From positions 1-50,882 of the forward strand of contig CAKZQG010000034.1 in the NCBI GenBank assembly GCA_937139605.1: a stretch of DNA of 50,882 bases, written 5' to 3'. The notes beneath the pieces were generated by a model. It saw only the letters and a list, made by a program, of their open reading frames with translations. It made no database searches and was not told the origin of the DNA. The DNA comes from an uncultured bacterium. Its GTDB lineage: Bacteria > DRYD01. Positions 27,999 through 46,727 of the stretch are shown here, one piece after another. Both the position numbers and the translations under genes were made by a program. How positions within the stretch are numbered: the first letter of the stretch is position 1; each line of letters begins with the position of its first letter.

Positions 27999-28889
27999 TT
28001 AATTAGTAAAAGTTAATTGAGGGTTAATAGTGGGTATATATGAGGTTGCTTTATTATTAAAGTATTCATCTATAATTTTTTTAATTTCTGGGTCTGGTTG
28101 GATTACTTTAGAATTAATTGGGAATGGTTTAAGTATAAAATCAATAACTTTGTTTTGCTTTTTATCGTATTTAATTTGAGAGAACCCGAGGTATTTAGTA
28201 TAAGCTCCCATTTCTACTATATAAGTTTTATGATTAAATCCTTTTATATTAGTTTCAAAAATAATTGGTTTTGGAGTATAGTTATGATCATGTCCAGCAA
28301 AAATTACATCTATATCTGAAGCTATATCAGGATTACTTTTTAAAATATCTTGAATTTTATTAATTCCTTCGTGAGCTAATAAAATAACAATATTTGATTG
28401 GGATTTAATTTTTGGGATTAGTTCTTTTAGAATTTGATTAATGGGTATTTTTATTGTATCTTTACCGACATGAGGGTTAGCCGAGGTAGCTAATTCTGTA
28501 GTACATACACTTATAAAAGCTATTTTTATCCCATTTTTTTCTATAATTGTATAAGGTATTATTCCTTCAGGTAATTTATTAGTAGATTTATCTAATATAT
28601 TACTGTTAAGTACTTTAAAATTGGCTTGTTTGACATATTCATTAACAAGTGTATTAACCCCATATTGGTATTCGTGGTTTCCAGTGGCGGCTATATCGTA
28701 TTTAAGCGTGTTCATTATTTTTACCATTGGTTTAAAATGATGTTTTTTATCATAAGGAGGATTATATACAGTATCCCCTATATCAATCAGAAATGAATCA
28801 GGGTATTTGGTTTTTAATTGTTTTATAATTGTAGATATGTAAGGCATTCCGCCAGTTGAATTGTTGTTAGGATAGTATTTCCCATGCAT
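27999..28889 (-). CDS. 5'-nucleotidase/metallophosphatase-like protein, interrupted N-terminus
   Basis: 296 residues from the first ATG after an in-frame stop. Metallophosphatase blocks: IDIGDTV (metal ligand Asp), ATGNHEYQYG (Asn-His), LLAHEG and FAGHDHNY (His ligands). This matches the catalytic domain of the UshA/5'-nucleotidase family, without the C-terminal domain. The family's first motif, H-T-N-D-x-H-G, is encoded just upstream as IIHTNDMHGKYY: the Met of this motif is the ATG at 28889. Starting there would lose the Asp ligand. The same frame continues upstream to ATG 29045 with one TAA (28947-28949). It is therefore either a broken gene or one needing readthrough. Confidence 0.75.
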   Translation of the reverse strand: MHGKYYPNNNSTGGMPYISTIIKQLKTKYPDSFLIDIGDTVYNPPYDKKHHFKPMVKIMNTLKYDIAATGNHEYQYGVNTLVNEYVKQANFKVLNSNILDKSTNKLPEGIIPYTIIEKNGIKIAFISVCTTELATSANPHVGKDTIKIPINQILKELIPKIKSQSNIVILLAHEGINKIQDILKSNPDIASDIDVIFAGHDHNYTPKPIIFETNIKGFNHKTYIVEMGAYTKYLGFSQIKYDKKQNKVIDFILKPFPINSKVIQPDPEIKKIIDEYFNNKATSYIPTINPQLTFTN

Positions 28890-29045
28890 GTCATTTGTAT
28901 GAATTATATTTATTGTTTCTATTGAATCATCTGAGTCTGAGTTATTTTAAATGATATCAATAGTACCATTAAAATCAATATCATTTTTATTAAGAAAATT
29001 AAGAAAACGATTTGCTATTTTATTAATAAAATCTTTTATTATCAT
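28890..29045 (-). pseudogene. In-frame N-terminal segment of the nucleotidase gene, with TAA
   Basis: Reading the minus strand from ATG 29045 gives MIIKDFINKIANRFLNFLNK, then NDIDFNGTIDII, TAA (28947-28949), and NNSDSDDSIETINIIHTND leading directly into the annotated frame. The segment after the stop holds the essential family motif, so it was coding until recently. The segment before the stop reads NKNDIDFNGTID, similar to an EF-hand loop. No ATG, GTG or TTG lies between the TAA and the D-M-H-G methionine. Confidence 0.65.
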
Positions 29046-31515: not shown

Positions 31516-32049
31516 TTATAGAGCTCTTGGAAAACCGAAGCTTCCACTTATTTGGCTGAAGTTAAAATTAAATCCTCCTTGATTAAAATTATTTTGTTGA
31601 TTTTGTTGGTTTTGTTGTTGTAATAGCATCATTAGCAGAATTATTAATAAAATTATTATTAATTGATTATTCATTGCGTTAGGGCTATTTTGACAACAAG
31701 GATTTCCAAATGGAGCCATTCCTGGGTTCATTCCACCCATTGGATTCATTCCTCCTAAGGGATTCATTCCTCCCATTGGCAAAGAGAATGGAGATACTGG
31801 ATTTTGTCCACCTAAAGCTCCTCCTAATATGCCCCCTAATAATCCTCCTAAGACTCCTCCTAATAATCCACCAATTAAGCCACCTAATAACCCATTAACT
31901 AAATTATTCATTGGATTAATATTAGCTATATCTCCAAAACCCGCTCCTATTGGTAATCCACCACCTATAGCACCAAAACCTGCTCCTATTGATAGACCGC
32001 CACCTATTGAAAAACCTCCTCCTATAAATCCTCCTATATTATTTATCAT
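31516..32049 (-). CDS. Glycine-zipper protein with C-terminal hydrophobic segment
   Basis: 177 residues of low complexity. Residues 1-45 are glycine-rich (GGFIGGGFSIGGGLSIGAGF), then a regular glycine zipper with G-G every four residues (about 53-83), a segment of N-P-M/L-G-G-M repeats (about 90-115), a Cys-Cys pair in GNPCCQNSP, a strongly hydrophobic helix (IIILLIILLMMLL) and an Asn/Gln-rich end. No signal peptide. Such glycine zippers insert in membranes or make tight helix packings. Related zippers occur in the proteins at 36100 and 49860. Strong AAGGAGGTG site and its own terminator. Function unknown. Confidence 0.75.
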   Translation of the reverse strand: MINNIGGFIGGGFSIGGGLSIGAGFGAIGGGLPIGAGFGDIANINPMNNLVNGLLGGLIGGLLGGVLGGLLGGILGGALGGQNPVSPFSLPMGGMNPLGGMNPMGGMNPGMAPFGNPCCQNSPNAMNNQLIIILLIILLMMLLQQQNQQNQQNNFNQGGFNFNFSQISGSFGFPRAL

Positions 32050-35355: not shown

Positions 35356-36045
35356 TTAATATTCTTTTATAAATTGGTTTATTTTATCTAAGATTTTATT
35401 AATTTTAGTTTCGTTATTTTCTTCTATAGCTTTATCTAAGGATTTTAGTAAATTATTTAATTCATGAGCTTTTTGTAAATCATTTTCATCTAATAATTCA
35501 CTTTCTTTTAGTATATCTTCTAAAGTAAATTCATTATTTTTATTAGAATTACTTAATTTTTCTTCAATTTCTTTTAAAAGTTTTGTTTTCTCTTTTTCAT
35601 TTATTTCTTCATTTTCTATTATATTATCTATTTCTTCTATAGGATAAAAATTATCCAGATCTTTTTCTTCGTTATTTTCCTCTTCAGCAGTATTTACTAA
35701 TTCTTCTAAAGCTTTTAAACTTTCTTCTACTTCTTTATTTAAATTTTCCAGTTCTGCTTCATTATACTCTTTTTTGTTATCTATAATATCTTCTATTGTT
35801 TTTAAATATTCTCCTATTTTTAAATTAATTTCTTCTAAATTATTCTTTATTCCTAGTATAAATTTGTCTTCTTCATCTATTTCTTCTTTATAATTTTCCA
35901 TATCTTTTATAGAACTTTCTAATTCTAAAATATTTTGATTTATAATATCTTTTATATTTAATAAAAAGCTTCTTAAATCTTGTAAATTAAAATTATCTTT
36001 TTTATTTTCCAATTGTTTTAAAATATTATATATATCACTAATAAT
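35356..36045 (-). CDS. Acidic coiled-coil protein, possible ATT start
   Basis: 218 residues from TTG 36012, or about 229 if it starts at ATT 36045 or 36042. No ATG begins the frame. The only strong ribosome-binding site (GGTAGGTGAG, about 36049-36058) is 38 bases before the TTG but at ideal distance from two in-frame ATT codons, and the frame between stays open (IISDIYNILKQLENKKDN). The protein is highly charged, mostly Glu/Lys/Asn, with long helices and heptads; there is no membrane segment. I recognise no family. It lies between hfq and the GMGLP protein, all on the minus strand. Confidence 0.65.
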   Translation of the reverse strand: MISDIYNILKQLENKKDNFNLQDLRSFLLNIKDIINQNILELESSIKDMENYKEEIDEEDKFILGIKNNLEEINLKIGEYLKTIEDIIDNKKEYNEAELENLNKEVEESLKALEELVNTAEEENNEEKDLDNFYPIEEIDNIIENEEINEKEKTKLLKEIEEKLSNSNKNNEFTLEDILKESELLDENDLQKAHELNNLLKSLDKAIEENNETKINKILDKINQFIKEY

Positions 36046-36099: not shown

Positions 36100-38451
36100 T
36101 TAAGCTATAGCTACATTATTTTGAAAACTAAAACTACTAATCGAAACAAAACCTATATTTAAATTATTAAAATTATTAAAATTATTTAGTAAGTTATTGT
36201 TATTCATTATTAAATTATTATTTATTAACATATTTCCAAGAACTCCTCCCAGTATACCTCCCAGCATTATTTGATTCATCATTGGATTTGCTAACATATT
36301 AATAGGGTTTGTCATTAAGGGGCCGCCTAATGTTCTACCTAACATTCCTCCTAATGCTCCTCCAATTAAGGCACCTTGTATTGCACCTGCTGATGCTGGA
36401 GATATTCCACTTAAGTTTTCTCCTACAGCTTGTGATACTAATTGCCTAACTTCTGGGCTTATATCTATTCTTTGAGCTATTTGGATGTAAATATTCCTTA
36501 ATATAATTTTATACATTTGAGCTTGCGGGTTACTTTGATTATTCAATATGAAATTAGCTAATTGTGTTAATTGTTGTTCTGCTTGTCTTTTAACATATCT
36601 TGGAGTAAAATTAGAACCAATAGAACCTGCTAATGCTCCTCCTAAAGCACCACCTAACATACCCCCCATTAAACCTCCTAACATATTAGAGTTTAATGGA
36701 TTCATTAATCTTCTTTGCATTAACATATTATTTCCCATTAAATTCATCATACCTCCCATTAACATAAATGACAATCCCATTAACGGATTTATCCCCATTA
36801 ACCCTATTCCCATCATTGAGATTGTATTACCTAAACCATTAAACATTAGTGGCATCCCAATGGGAGGTAATCCCATACCAGGCAATCCCATACCAGGTAA
36901 TCCCATACCAGGTAATCCCATACCAGGTAATCCCATACCAGGTAATCCCATACCAGGCAATCCCATACCAGGTAATCCCATACCAGGTAATCCCATACCA
37001 GGCAATCCCATACCAGGTAATCCCATACCAGGCAATCCCATACCAGGCATCCCTATACTAGGTAATCCCATATTTCCTACATTTTCTCCTAACATCATTA
37101 ATCTTTGGATGATCATTTGTCTTTCAATAAGTTTTTGTTGAATCAATTGAGATACATAATTTTTTCTTTCTTTTATTTGGTTTAATCTTTCTGTAATATT
37201 TTGTATTTGTTGGAGGGCTTTTTGTTTAAGTTTATCTAAGAAAGATATTTTTTTGTCCATTAGTTGTTGCATTTTGTTAAGATGATTTGCTTTATTTTGC
37301 ATGAGTTTAGATTTTTGTTGAAGGAATTTAGAAGCTTTTTTAAGCATTTTAGCAATCATTCTAATAGCTTTAGCAGCCATTCTTAAAGCAGCAGCTATGG
37401 CTGGGCCAACTAATGGAATAGCTTGGGCTGCATTAGCTGCAGCTTCTAAACCTTGTGCAGCGTTTTCCATAACAGTAGACATTTTATCCAAAACTTTAGA
37501 AGCAACATCTAAAGCTTTAGAAAAACCTTTGAACATAGTTTCTTTTGCTTTAAAAAATATTTTTCTCATTTTAGCAAAATTCTGACCTTGATTTATTTTT
37601 AATAAATCGTTTTGTAATAACATTAATTTTTGAGTTTCCATTATTTCCATTGAACTTAAGTTTTGAAAACTAGTAAATAGATTCCCTAAAATTTCTTGAT
37701 TAGAAGATAGCATGGAGACTAAGGAATCTACATCATGTATCTGCATGATGTTATTATTAACAATAGATGAATTAAATAAAGAAATTCCTCCTAAAGTTGC
37801 TACTCCTATACCTCCAAATAAGCTAGAAAACATACTTTTAAAACCATCTTCATTAACAGATAATCTAAATGGAGTTAGTAAAAATCTAAAATCACCTTGT
37901 AAATTAGGAAATTGAGAAATTAAATTTGCTCCTTTATTATATAAAGCATCTTTAGCATGATTATTTGAAGAAAACTGATTAACTAAGTTTTTTGTTTGTG
38001 ATTCTGTTTTATTTTTTAAATTTAAATGTTTTGATTTAAGGTTTTTTAGATTTTTAAGACCTTTAGTAAATATTTTTATTTGCTGTTTAATTTGATTTAT
38101 TAACCCCCAGGGTTTAAATTTTCTTGATAATAAACTTTTTAATTTATTTTTTAGGGACGTTATTTTATTAGTTAAATTAGATATCCCTGAGTCGAATTTA
38201 GTTAATGTTTGGGTAAAATTTTTAGTTAATTCTTGAGGAACTTTTTCTACTTTAAAATTAGAGTTAAAACCAGCATTTTCTAATGGTTTATCTTGGTTTA
38301 TGGAGTTTTGTACTTGTTGAATATCATTTTGATTAACATCTCCTGCTTCAGTTTGTTGTCCCGAAGATATTGTAAAATCTCCGTAAAATAAAGCGTTACT
38401 ATAATATGAATTTCCTACATTAAAATTATTGTTAAAAGAATTTATTGACAT
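36100..38451 (-). CDS. Coiled-coil protein with GMGLP repeats and glycine zippers
   Basis: 783 residues. The N-terminus MSINSFNNNFNVGNSYYSNA has no signal peptide. A Lys/Leu-rich helical region (about 75-150) is followed by a glycine- and isoleucine-rich stretch, then coiled coil with an amphipathic hydrophobic hairpin AAQAIPLVGPAIAAALRMAA (about 345) and a long Gln/Lys coiled coil to about 450. Then about twelve GMGLP repeats (from about 465 to 530), a Met/Gly/Leu-rich part, glycine zippers (GGLMGGMLGGALGGALAGSI and GALIGGALGGMLG) and an Asn-rich end. Strong TAGGAGGTGA site. The layout resembles type III translocators in outline only. Probably an exported or membrane-inserting protein; no family recognised. 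Confidence 0.75.
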   Translation of the reverse strand: MSINSFNNNFNVGNSYYSNALFYGDFTISSGQQTEAGDVNQNDIQQVQNSINQDKPLENAGFNSNFKVEKVPQELTKNFTQTLTKFDSGISNLTNKITSLKNKLKSLLSRKFKPWGLINQIKQQIKIFTKGLKNLKNLKSKHLNLKNKTESQTKNLVNQFSSNNHAKDALYNKGANLISQFPNLQGDFRFLLTPFRLSVNEDGFKSMFSSLFGGIGVATLGGISLFNSSIVNNNIMQIHDVDSLVSMLSSNQEILGNLFTSFQNLSSMEIMETQKLMLLQNDLLKINQGQNFAKMRKIFFKAKETMFKGFSKALDVASKVLDKMSTVMENAAQGLEAAANAAQAIPLVGPAIAAALRMAAKAIRMIAKMLKKASKFLQQKSKLMQNKANHLNKMQQLMDKKISFLDKLKQKALQQIQNITERLNQIKERKNYVSQLIQQKLIERQMIIQRLMMLGENVGNMGLPSIGMPGMGLPGMGLPGMGLPGMGLPGMGLPGMGLPGMGLPGMGLPGMGLPGMGLPGMGLPGMGLPPIGMPLMFNGLGNTISMMGIGLMGINPLMGLSFMLMGGMMNLMGNNMLMQRRLMNPLNSNMLGGLMGGMLGGALGGALAGSIGSNFTPRYVKRQAEQQLTQLANFILNNQSNPQAQMYKIILRNIYIQIAQRIDISPEVRQLVSQAVGENLSGISPASAGAIQGALIGGALGGMLGRTLGGPLMTNPINMLANPMMNQIMLGGILGGVLGNMLINNNLIMNNNNLLNNFNNFNNLNIGFVSISSFSFQNNVAIA
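36871..37050 (-). repeat. 15-bp coding tandem repeat, 12 copies (GMGLP)
   Basis: Twelve 15-base units (plus strand TCCCATACCAGGYAA) run without interruption inside the 783-residue protein gene. The only variation among full units is one synonymous C/T, so the array is recent or homogenised. Diverged copies flank both ends (GLPSIGMP and GLPPIGMP). Copy number probably varies between strains. Confidence 0.95.
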
Positions 38452-38677: not shown

Positions 38678-39053
38678 TGGTGGAGGTGGTGGGAGTTGAA
38701 CCCACGTCCGGTAAGCTAAGCAGATAGCATCTACAGGCTTAGGTAAGTTTATGGCTAACTTACCAAACCCCTGGTTTTAAGTTTTAGTGTATTATTAAGA
38801 TAACCAGGAAACTTAACAATACACGTAGCACCGATTATCTTAGTTTATAAGCGGTGCGACTTATAAACGCAGCTTGCTTGGATCTTAACCCACTAAGGTA
38901 AGAGCAAGCGCTTACCTTAGCAAGCCTGCTTATTATTAAGCAGCTAAAGCTAATTGGTTGTCGGCGTTTATTTTACTCTTAGCTTTAACGGAGCTAAGAC
39001 CCGGCCTGCAGCTTATCTACTTAACCTCTTACCGTCGAACCCCTTACACCCCC
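38678..39053 (-). ncRNA. ssrA: tmRNA (transfer-messenger RNA)
   Basis: On the minus strand, 5' GGGGGUG (39047-39053) pairs with CACCUCC (38682-38688) as the acceptor stem, followed by A and the encoded CCA (38678-38680). The T arm is GGGUUCAACUCCC. The 5' section carries the conserved GGGGUUCGACGG. The tag reading frame, GCC-GAC-AAC-CAA-TTA-GCT-TTA-GCT-GCT then TAA TAA, encodes ADNQLALAA (38936-38965 including stop), with the usual LALAA degradation end. The mature length is about 376 nucleotides, single piece. It rescues stalled ribosomes with SmpB. Confidence 0.95.
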
Positions 39054-40518: not shown

Positions 40519-41262
40519 TTATTTTCCACCACCTGAAGAATTACCGGAACTTGAAGAGCCGCTAGCTCTTGAAGAATTACCGGAACTTGAAGAGCTGCTA
40601 GCTCCTGAAGAACTACCGGAACTTGAAGAGCTGCTAGCTCCTGAAGAACTACCGGAACTTGAAGAGCTACTAGCTCCTGAAGAACTACCGGAACTTGAAG
40701 AGCTACTAGCTCCTGAAGAACTACCGGAAGGGGTTTTATCTCCTAATTGACTAAAATCACCAGGCTGTAATTTATTTTCTCCATCTTTAGTAGGTTTTCC
40801 ATCTTCGTTAGTATCTATTACAACTGCTGGTTTATTTTCTCCACCTATATTAACGTTAGGATCTGGTTTTAAATCAAAATCTTTACCATCATTTGTAATT
40901 ACTTTTTTAGAATTAAGATCTATTTCTTTTATATTAGCATCTTGGGCAGATTTTAATTCGTTGTTATCTATTTTCCCATCTTTATTATAATCAATTGATA
41001 CTTGTATATCTTTTAATTCATCTCCACTAATTTTTCCATCTCCATTTTTATCATATTTAGCTAAATCATTTAAATTACTTAAAACTCCGTTTTTTAAATC
41101 TAAGGTTTCTCCATTTTTAAGGGCTTCAAGATCCTTAGCTGAAAAAATAGTTAAAAAAGCATCTCCTAATTGTTTAGGAGACGTACAGTTAGGTTGACTG
41201 CTAGATTGACTACTAGGATTTATAGGATTGAAGGAAGCGGCTTCTTGTGAAAAATTCCCCAT
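40519..41262 (-). CDS. EF-hand protein with Ser-Gly-Ala repeats (truncated frame)
   Basis: 247 residues from ATG 41262, but this ATG has no ribosome-binding site; the frame continues upstream to 41496 with one TAA. Two canonical EF-hand loops are visible: DKNGDGKISGDE (about residues 70-81) and DYNKDGKIDNNE (about 89-100), with a third weaker DTNEDGKPTKDG. Then a C-terminal low-complexity region of five 12-residue SSSGASSSSSSG-type repeats, ending in GGGK. It could be a calcium-dependent secreted protein; the M14 peptidase in this window has a related loop. No signal peptide in this version. Function unknown. Confidence 0.7.
   Translation of the reverse strand: MGNFSQEAASFNPINPSSQSSSQPNCTSPKQLGDAFLTIFSAKDLEALKNGETLDLKNGVLSNLNDLAKYDKNGDGKISGDELKDIQVSIDYNKDGKIDNNELKSAQDANIKEIDLNSKKVITNDGKDFDLKPDPNVNIGGENKPAVVIDTNEDGKPTKDGENKLQPGDFSQLGDKTPSGSSSGASSSSSSGSSSGASSSSSSGSSSGASSSSSSGSSSGASSSSSSGNSSRASGSSSSGNSSGGGK
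40543..40722 (-). repeat. 36-bp coding tandem repeat, 5 copies (Ser-Gly-Ala)
   Basis: Five 36-base units, plus strand ACCGGAACTTGAAGAGCTRC and so on, run head to tail; the first (40543) differs most. The composition is notably richer in G and C than the rest of the gene. Encodes the SSSGASSSSSSG repeats. Confidence 0.95.
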
Positions 41263-41496
41263 TATTGAAGCATATTGAGCTCTAAACGAATTAATTAAAT
41301 GGGGTTTCTGTTTTAATAAAAATACAAATACAAAAAATGATATATTTCCTAAGCTTAATGAAATAAAACCGAAGTAAAATTCTAATTCCTCAATAGATAC
41401 CCCTAAACTAGCAGATATATTATTAACTTCTTATTTTTGCTGAATACTTAATTGATTATAGTAATATCCATAAGAGAAGTTATTACTTATTAGCAT
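41263..41496 (-). pseudogene. In-frame 5' segment of the EF-hand gene, with TAA
   Basis: From ATG 41496, preceded by the textbook site GGGAGGTGA, the frame reads MLISNNFSYGYYYNQLSIQQ K, TAA (41431-41433), then EVNNISASLGVSIEELEFYF and a hydrophobic helix FISLSLGNISFFVFVFLL before joining the EF-hand frame. The strong initiation signal is therefore upstream of a stop at codon 22, and the true protein would be about 325 residues with a membrane segment. Substituting any sense codon at that one position restores the gene. Confidence 0.7.
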
Positions 41497-41781
41497 ATAT
41501 AATTCACCTCCCATTTTTTATTTTTTAGTTGTTATTTTATATTTTTATATTATAATTTTTATTATAAGAAATCTAGATTTTGTTAAATTTATTGAATAAA
41601 TGTTAAATAATTAAACAAATTGTTAAATATTAAAATTAAATTAATTAAGAAATATTAATTTTAGGTAGTTTTTTAAAAGATAAAGATAAAAATAAAAATA
41701 AGTGAAATAGATGTCATTTAATGTTTTCTTTTGTTTCGTAAATCAATCTTATATTTGCTTTAAGAATATCTATTTAAATTT

Positions 41782-43023
41782 TCAGATTGCTTTTACTTTT
41801 CTAAAGGAGGCTACAAAGCCTGCAGTAAAAGCTGGGTAGTTAAAAGATGGCATCGGCATATTTGAAAAAGCTAAAAAACTACTAAACACACTTAATACCG
41901 GTAATATCATATTATTATTTAGAGAATTATTATTCATCATTGAATTTCCAAATAACCCCATCATATTCATTATTGGACTATTCATAAACATATTTAGTAA
42001 TGAGAAAATATTTAATGGATTTAAGTTATTCATATTTGGATTATAAAATCCTAAGCCTCTTATACTATTTAAATTATTTAAAATATTATTAAGAAGATTT
42101 AATTGATTTTCAAATTGTTTTTGATTTATTAATTCCTGAGCCCTTTTATATATTAATTGCAAATGTTTTACTACTTTAATTATTGCTTCTTTTAATTTTT
42201 CTTGATAATTATTAATATTATTAAGCAATTGTTTAAGATTATTTAATTTTATATCCAGTTGTTGTAGTTTATTTTGTAATTGATTAACTTGATTTTGAAG
42301 TTCATTGGCTTTATTACGTAGTTCTTGAGCTTTTTGTTGTAGTTGTTGTGCTTGGTTTTTAAGTTGAGTAGCTAAGTTTTTTAAAGTCATAGCTTGAGCT
42401 CTTAAAGCTTGTGCTTGAGATAATAAAGAAGCCCCAGCAGAAGCTGTAAACGGATTAGCTAATAATGCCTGAGCTTGTTGTTCTAATAAATTAGCACTTT
42501 GTTCTAAATTGTTTGCTTGCATTTCATAATTATTAGCTTGATTTGTTAAATTATTTGCTTGATTATTTAATTGATTTGCTTGATTATTTAATTGATTTAT
42601 CTGATTATTTAATTGTTCTATTCTTTGTTGAATTTGAACTTTATGATTTTCTATATTTCTTATATTATTTAAAACTTTGTTTTTATCAACTTCTACTTTC
42701 TGATATATTTTAACTAATTGATTGTATTTATCTAAATATAATTTAAATTGATCACTTAGTGTATTTAAATCATTTATTTGAGAATAGTAGGATTCATTAG
42801 GTTCAGGGACTGCAGGAATTGGTTCAGGATTATATGAAGTATTTATATTGTTAGGTCTTACTGTAGAATATAAATCATTATAATCTACTATATTAAAATC
42901 ATCTTTAATATATCCATCTAATGGTAAGCTTGTGGAACTTATAAAAGAAGTAGAAATAGTAGTACTTGGTCTTACATAATTACTACCTATTATATTTAAA
43001 TTAGAAAAAACATCAAATGACAT
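41782..43023 (-). CDS. Asn/Gln-rich coiled-coil protein
   Basis: 413 residues. An 80-residue Ser/Thr/Asn/Pro-rich start (MSFDVFSNLNIIGSNYVRPS, then PEPIPAVPEPNE), a long coiled coil of about 85-310 with seven-residue repeats such as QLNNQANQLNNQANNLTNQA, an alanine-rich break ALLANPFTASAGASLLSQAQ, and a Met/Asn/Leu-rich tail with NPMN-type repeats. The end has a hydrophobic segment (VLSVFSSFLAFSN). No signal peptide. Strong AAGGAGGGA site. Like the 783-residue protein it combines a Ser/Asn head, coiled coil and Met/Gly-Asn tail. No family recognised. Confidence 0.7.
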   Translation of the reverse strand: MSFDVFSNLNIIGSNYVRPSTTISTSFISSTSLPLDGYIKDDFNIVDYNDLYSTVRPNNINTSYNPEPIPAVPEPNESYYSQINDLNTLSDQFKLYLDKYNQLVKIYQKVEVDKNKVLNNIRNIENHKVQIQQRIEQLNNQINQLNNQANQLNNQANNLTNQANNYEMQANNLEQSANLLEQQAQALLANPFTASAGASLLSQAQALRAQAMTLKNLATQLKNQAQQLQQKAQELRNKANELQNQVNQLQNKLQQLDIKLNNLKQLLNNINNYQEKLKEAIIKVVKHLQLIYKRAQELINQKQFENQLNLLNNILNNLNSIRGLGFYNPNMNNLNPLNIFSLLNMFMNSPIMNMMGLFGNSMMNNNSLNNNMILPVLSVFSSFLAFSNMPMPSFNYPAFTAGFVASFRKVKAI

Positions 43024-46295: not shown

Positions 46296-46727
46296 TTAAT
46301 TAGAAAAAGTTTGGTTATTATTATCATAATATGATACTTTTATATTTTTGTAAGAAGCATTTAGTAGTTTATATGGGTTATATTGGTTTATATAAACGTT
46401 ATTATTAACATATTTTGGTTGTACATAAGTAGGAGAAACGTAATTATTATTAATATAAATTCTGTTTATCATTACTTGGGGAACATAAGTAGGACTAACG
46501 TAAACTCTATTAACATAAACTGGATTAACATAAACTGGGCTAACATAAACCGGACTAACATAAACTCTATTAACATAAACTGGATTAACATAAACTGGGC
46601 TAACATATGCACTAAACGCTTCTAATTTTGAACATAATAAAATTATTATTATCAAGATTAATGAATTAATTAATAAATTTTTATTAATTTTTTTTGTTAT
46701 TTTTTTGGTTTTTAGAATTTTTAACAT
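46296..46727 (-). CDS. Exported protein with VYVxP pentapeptide repeats
   Basis: 143 residues. A lysine-rich start and a hydrophobic segment (LLINSLILIIIILLC) ending KLEAFSA form a signal peptide or anchor. Then about 10-12 pentapeptides of the V-Y-V-[NS]-[PR] type, first perfect (VYVSPVYVNPVYVNRVYVSP), later decaying (YVPQVMINRIYINNNYVSP). The DNA repeat is 15 bases. Strict alternation suggests a beta-structured or fibrous surface protein. Ribosome-binding site CGGAGGGGGA. One of few proteins in this region with a clear signal sequence. Function unknown. Confidence 0.75.
   Translation of the reverse strand: MLKILKTKKITKKINKNLLINSLILIIIILLCSKLEAFSAYVSPVYVNPVYVNRVYVSPVYVSPVYVNPVYVNRVYVSPTYVPQVMINRIYINNNYVSPTYVQPKYVNNNVYINQYNPYKLLNASYKNIKVSYYDNNNQTFSN

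Follow-up and report, generated by a model that had tools for sequence, protein, structure and literature searches.

An in-frame TAA private to one genome interrupts an EF-hand gene of an uncultured bacterium and is probably a single-base lesion or a consensus error

A start codon with a strong ribosome-binding signal, followed after 21 codons by a TAA in a frame that then runs on into an EF-hand protein, raises the question of whether the gene is broken, carries a sequence error or is translated past its stop. The locus lies in the window, the whole stretch of 50,882 nucleotides that was analyzed (GC content 25.2%), which belongs to the genome of an uncultured, AT-rich bacterium (G000; 1,881,279 bases, 88.5% complete). 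The relatives used for comparison are all members of the same order (G001 to G006), with G001 belonging to the same genus as G000 and both G002 and G003 to the same family. An earlier note on this DNA had described a frame opened by GGGAGGTGA and ATG 41496, and reinspection bears this out: TAA is codon 22 (41433-41431), and no further stop follows until the TAA at 40519. Sequence inspection also agrees that the ATG normally called, at 41262, has no Shine-Dalgarno (SD)-like sequence upstream; the ORF that it opens encodes 247 residues. The interrupted frame has the following parts.

41504 to 41512, minus strand: Shine-Dalgarno sequence GGGAGGTGA of the original start, recognized in the sequence; an SD-like run also precedes the ATGs of the G001 and G002 orthologues
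41434 to 41496, minus strand: 5' end of the frame, 21 codons that precede the stop and share 67% of their residues with G001
41431 to 41433, minus strand: derived in-frame TAA, aligned with sense codons in G001, G002 and G003
41263 to 41430, minus strand: conserved 56-codon segment with a hydrophobic stretch, separated from the start by the TAA; dN/dS 0.12 and 75% identical residues to G001
41392 to 41394, minus strand: ATT behind an AGGGG run, the sole in-frame re-initiation candidate 3' of the TAA in a start-codon scan
40519 to 41262, minus strand: body with an EF-hand pair and Ser-rich C-terminal repeats, the SD-less ORF of the gene caller; assigned from PF13202 and dN/dS

The comparison with relatives that the earlier note had proposed yields the same answer in every case. 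The body of the EF-hand protein was queried against 40 genomes, six of them the other order members, and all three of these six that have the segment (G001, G002 and G003) show an uninterrupted frame over the stop position, with a sense codon at the TAA column. The G001 orthologue comprises 331 residues and, like that of G002, is uninterrupted and begins at an ATG preceded by an SD-like run. G003 was found using the N-terminal segment as the query, and its contig piece is uninterrupted across that segment. A match in G004 that appeared to contain one TAA (E=0.017) failed on closer inspection. Because all three relatives carry sense codons, the TAA is derived and private to G000; the G001 codon at this column is one substitution away from TAA.

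Judged from these alignments, the frame on both sides of the TAA is ancestral coding sequence. Conservation, dN/dS and the rarity of so long an open frame all indicate that the stretch between the TAA and 41262 is genuinely coding: chance alone leaves 56 codons in a row open in 0.6-0.7% of Markov-random sequences with matched dinucleotide composition, and dN/dS versus G001 over these codons is 0.12, a constraint that may wholly predate the origin of the stop. The body reaches 0.27 in its initial 173 aligned codons and 0.40 in the last 64, so the 56-codon segment is the most constrained part that can be measured; in the 21 codons before the TAA, synonymous sites are saturated versus G001. These results bear on the simplest reading of the annotation, in which the short form from ATG 41262 is the normal product and the frame extends upstream of it only by chance. 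The short form is the longest ORF having a standard start, but it has no SD, the segment upstream of it is conserved and constrained, and the frames of G001 and G002 begin further upstream at SD-preceded ATGs. In addition, ATG 41262 aligns with an alanine codon in G001, with no start there, and therefore is not a conserved start. This reading is extremely improbable.

It is instead very probable that the gene is an EF-hand orthologue hit by a recent single-base nonsense lesion, either real or a consensus error, and not an evolved decoding signal. A real mutation and a consensus error are about equally likely. As the relatives suggest, one substitution would have created the TAA from a sense codon close to the 5' end. 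Ribosomes would start at ATG 41496 and halt after 21 residues. With no ribosome-binding site at ATG 41262, little or no body would be produced, leaving the EF-hand protein lost or strongly reduced. Any product from ATG 41262 would miss the hydrophobic segment found ahead of the EF-hands in the normal protein. The sequence 3' of the TAA is still constrained and contains no further stops or shifts; since no further damage has accumulated, the lesion would be recent unless it is a consensus error.

Translation might also resume past the stop. Re-initiation 36 bases past the TAA at ATT 41394, behind the AGGGG run, would retain the entire body along with the hydrophobic segment. When all in-frame ATG, GTG, TTG, CTG, ATT, ATA and ATC codons from 41496 to 41262 are scanned, only ATG 41496 and ATT 41394 are preceded, at suitable spacing, by a G-rich run resembling an SD, which makes the ATT the sole in-frame candidate past the TAA with such a run. 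The lineage also appears to start genes with ATT: a window gene at 35356-36042 (minus strand) has an SD followed by an ATT start codon, which is conserved because the same SD and ATT are present at the same place in G001 (C88, about 26073). Against re-initiation, a conserved glycine codon already demands the G-rich run at 41394, the aligned G001 codon is ATA and not ATT, and non-AUG re-initiation at that distance from a stop is unusual. This route to the full body is very unlikely.

The remaining alternative is that useful low-level readthrough of the TAA supplies a little full-length protein. In its favor, the segment 3' of the TAA is intact and under constraint, the base directly after the TAA is G, and one gene of the lineage has a conserved in-frame stop. 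According to an excerpt of PMC11126739, a G after the stop is associated with lower termination accuracy in E. coli proteome data, whereas E. coli reporters in the same excerpt show TAA to be read through least of the stops, making it the tightest terminator. Conservation of the stop between species, by which readthrough can be recognized, is not seen at this position, where G001, G002 and G003 all have sense codons. None of the 42 tRNA genes of G000 has an anticodon complementary to UAA, UAG or UGA, and thus none fits a suppressor tRNA; because the genome is only 88.5% complete, a tRNA gene could have been missed. A 4-bp anticodon stem in tRNA-Trp is the mechanism named in the excerpted text of PMC13092985; the tRNA-Trp(CCA) of G000 has a 5-bp stem with a terminal G-U pair (by eye) and is not clearly of that kind. 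TAA is the standard terminator in a 450,882-base sample of G000 (the window plus 400 kb): of 304 open segments exceeding 200 codons, 242 end in TAA, 35 in TAG and 27 in TGA. Readthrough is quite improbable. Of the options that the earlier note had left standing, nonsense mutation or sequencing error is favored by the sense codons in three of three relatives, the single substitution and the lack of a UAA-reading tRNA among those found, while readthrough gained no positive support. Two considerations do weigh against the lesion: a single genome cannot tell a recent lesion from a rarely used readthrough site, and, besides the G that follows the TAA, the same genome has another gene, similarly laid out, whose in-frame TGA is conserved.

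That TGA lies in a GNAT acetyltransferase gene of G000 (L103, G000:C37:~135513, minus strand) with counterparts in G002 (L104), G005 (L105) and G003 (L106). An SD and ATG open a leader that ends at the in-frame TGA; the body continues in this frame. The TGA is common to these four genomes, which represent two genera, and the G000 body contains no standard start codon within its first 114 codons. Codon differences indicate that the leader is conserved as protein: G003 and G005 differ by 3 synonymous and 0 nonsynonymous changes in 16 codons, and comparison with G002 gives 5-6 synonymous and 2 nonsynonymous differences. The G000 leader is four codons longer and more diverged, and G006 has a related acetyltransferase gene without the stop. 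Because the TGA is conserved and the layout is similar, leader-stop-body genes can persist in the lineage, and this TGA looks like the one place where a stop is meaningful. Selenocysteine insertion is unsupported, as no match to the selB model TIGR00475 exceeds the cut-off in any of seven genomes. ARAGORN reads the top G000 match to the tRNA-Sec model as a tRNA-Ser(UGA), and in G002-G005 this model gives candidate matches scoring over the cut-off. A hairpin directly 3' of the TGA is strong in G002 (L104) only (z -5.0); in the other three folded acetyltransferase sequences it is no better than most shuffles.

A broader proposal would be that the lineage tolerates or uses stops between a translated leader and a body, through readthrough or non-AUG re-initiation, with the acetyltransferase TGA as the best case and the EF-hand TAA, perhaps along with a metallophosphatase leader, as young members. 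This proposal is very unlikely. The metallophosphatase gene (window 27999-29045, minus strand) has a leader frame (ATG 29045, no SD) split from its body by a TAA. The corresponding leader of G001 is interrupted by a frame offset at ten consecutive T, and G006 has one intact frame. The body has a dN/dS of 0.13, and the listed start would drop part of an HTNDMHG motif, which presumably has a role in the enzyme.

How often isolated stops occur in this lineage was assessed by two screens. The homology screen used read-through queries to compare the G000 sample with an 833,254-base sample of G002 in both directions, and the resulting 44 stop-crossing rows from six comparisons were sorted by eye. 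Within this screen, which is blind to genes without relatives and to frame offsets, the only intragenic stop crossings are the EF-hand rows, two rows for the acetyltransferase and one for the G002 peptidase; the remaining rows are antisense, intergenic or natural gene ends. Two of the 226 G000 queries with a match in G002 cross an intragenic stop (the private EF-hand TAA and the shared acetyltransferase TGA). In the opposite direction, 1 of 252 queries with a match crosses a stop private to G002, besides the shared acetyltransferase TGA; both counts were made by eye. The peptidase-like gene of G002 (G002:C3:46820, minus strand) has an internal TGA where G000 has a sense codon.

The ab initio stop screen returned 113 candidates (8 in the window, 31 in C7, 37 in C37, 23 in C44 and 14 in C88 of G001), and eight of those in C7, C37 and C44 were inspected closely. 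A TAG lies inside a D-glucuronyl C5-epimerase gene (G000:C7:91139, minus strand), with Pfam family PF06662 spanning both sides, and a TGA lies inside a beta-propeller-like gene (G000:C7:128541, plus strand). Searches of G001-G006 gave no match for the epimerase and no orthologue of the beta-propeller-like gene, only short, weak repeat matches. Most other candidates are genes starting at an SD-less ATG shortly 3' of the stop. Otherwise sound genes do carry isolated stops here, at a low background rate. These stops involve all three stop codons and therefore fit mutation or consensus error, not a TAA-specific mechanism. A four-term literature query on premature stops in metagenome genomes found no publications.

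Several other features were recorded in the window and elsewhere in G000. Apparent non-AUG starts (ATT/ATA) behind an SD-like run are found at G000:C37:91845 (plus strand) and G000:C44:53938 (minus strand), in genes that we take to be coaD-like and infC-like, respectively. A gene at 36100-38451 (minus strand) encodes a protein of 783 residues that has a tandem LPGMG repeat and weak matches of Gly-zipper type. It possibly forms a surface or secreted set with the low-complexity proteins nearby (31516-32049, 41782-43023 and 46296-46727). A tmRNA gene with the tag ADNQLALAA is located at 38678-39053 (minus strand).

With regard to the EF-hand protein itself, a Pfam profile search confirms the domain assignment of the body (EF-hand_5, PF13202, E=1.7e-10, two stretches). 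Upstream of it, where a membrane helix had been proposed, lies a 19-residue hydrophobic peak, with Kyte-Doolittle means of 2.1 in the window, 1.99 in G001, 1.77 in G002 and 1.06 in G003, but the AlphaFold2 model of the G001 protein, which is of low confidence (mean pLDDT 51.5, 3 sequences), gives strands there and so does not show a helix. One reasonable guess is that the product is a membrane-anchored surface protein that binds calcium, but the structure model is too weak as support. By comparison with its relatives, the protein is lineage-specific and consists of a leader, a hydrophobic segment, the EF-hand pair and a Ser-rich tail.

The annotation should flag this gene as interrupted and place its start at 41496, not list a 247-residue protein from an SD-less ATG. 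The EF-hand case carries little biological weight unless readthrough is shown, for which detection of EVNNISASLGVSIEELE by metaproteomics would be supporting evidence. The acetyltransferase TGA is the more useful result, since it offers a direct test of recoding or leader-stop-body expression in this lineage.

Compared with known systems, the locus resembles functional readthrough genes in having an open frame that is constrained in relatives and runs on 3' of the stop. Unlike in those genes, the stop in the window is unconserved, is a TAA and occurs with no suppressor tRNA found. Nonsense lesions and single-base pseudogenes in draft metagenome genomes share with it the one private stop, the otherwise intact frame and the unbroken relatives, and no feature was found that distinguishes the locus from them. 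The encoded protein, with two EF-hand stretches over the Pfam cut-off, resembles bacterial EF-hand proteins (Pfam PF13202 / PF00036) but also has a Ser-rich tail and a hydrophobic N-terminus specific to the lineage.
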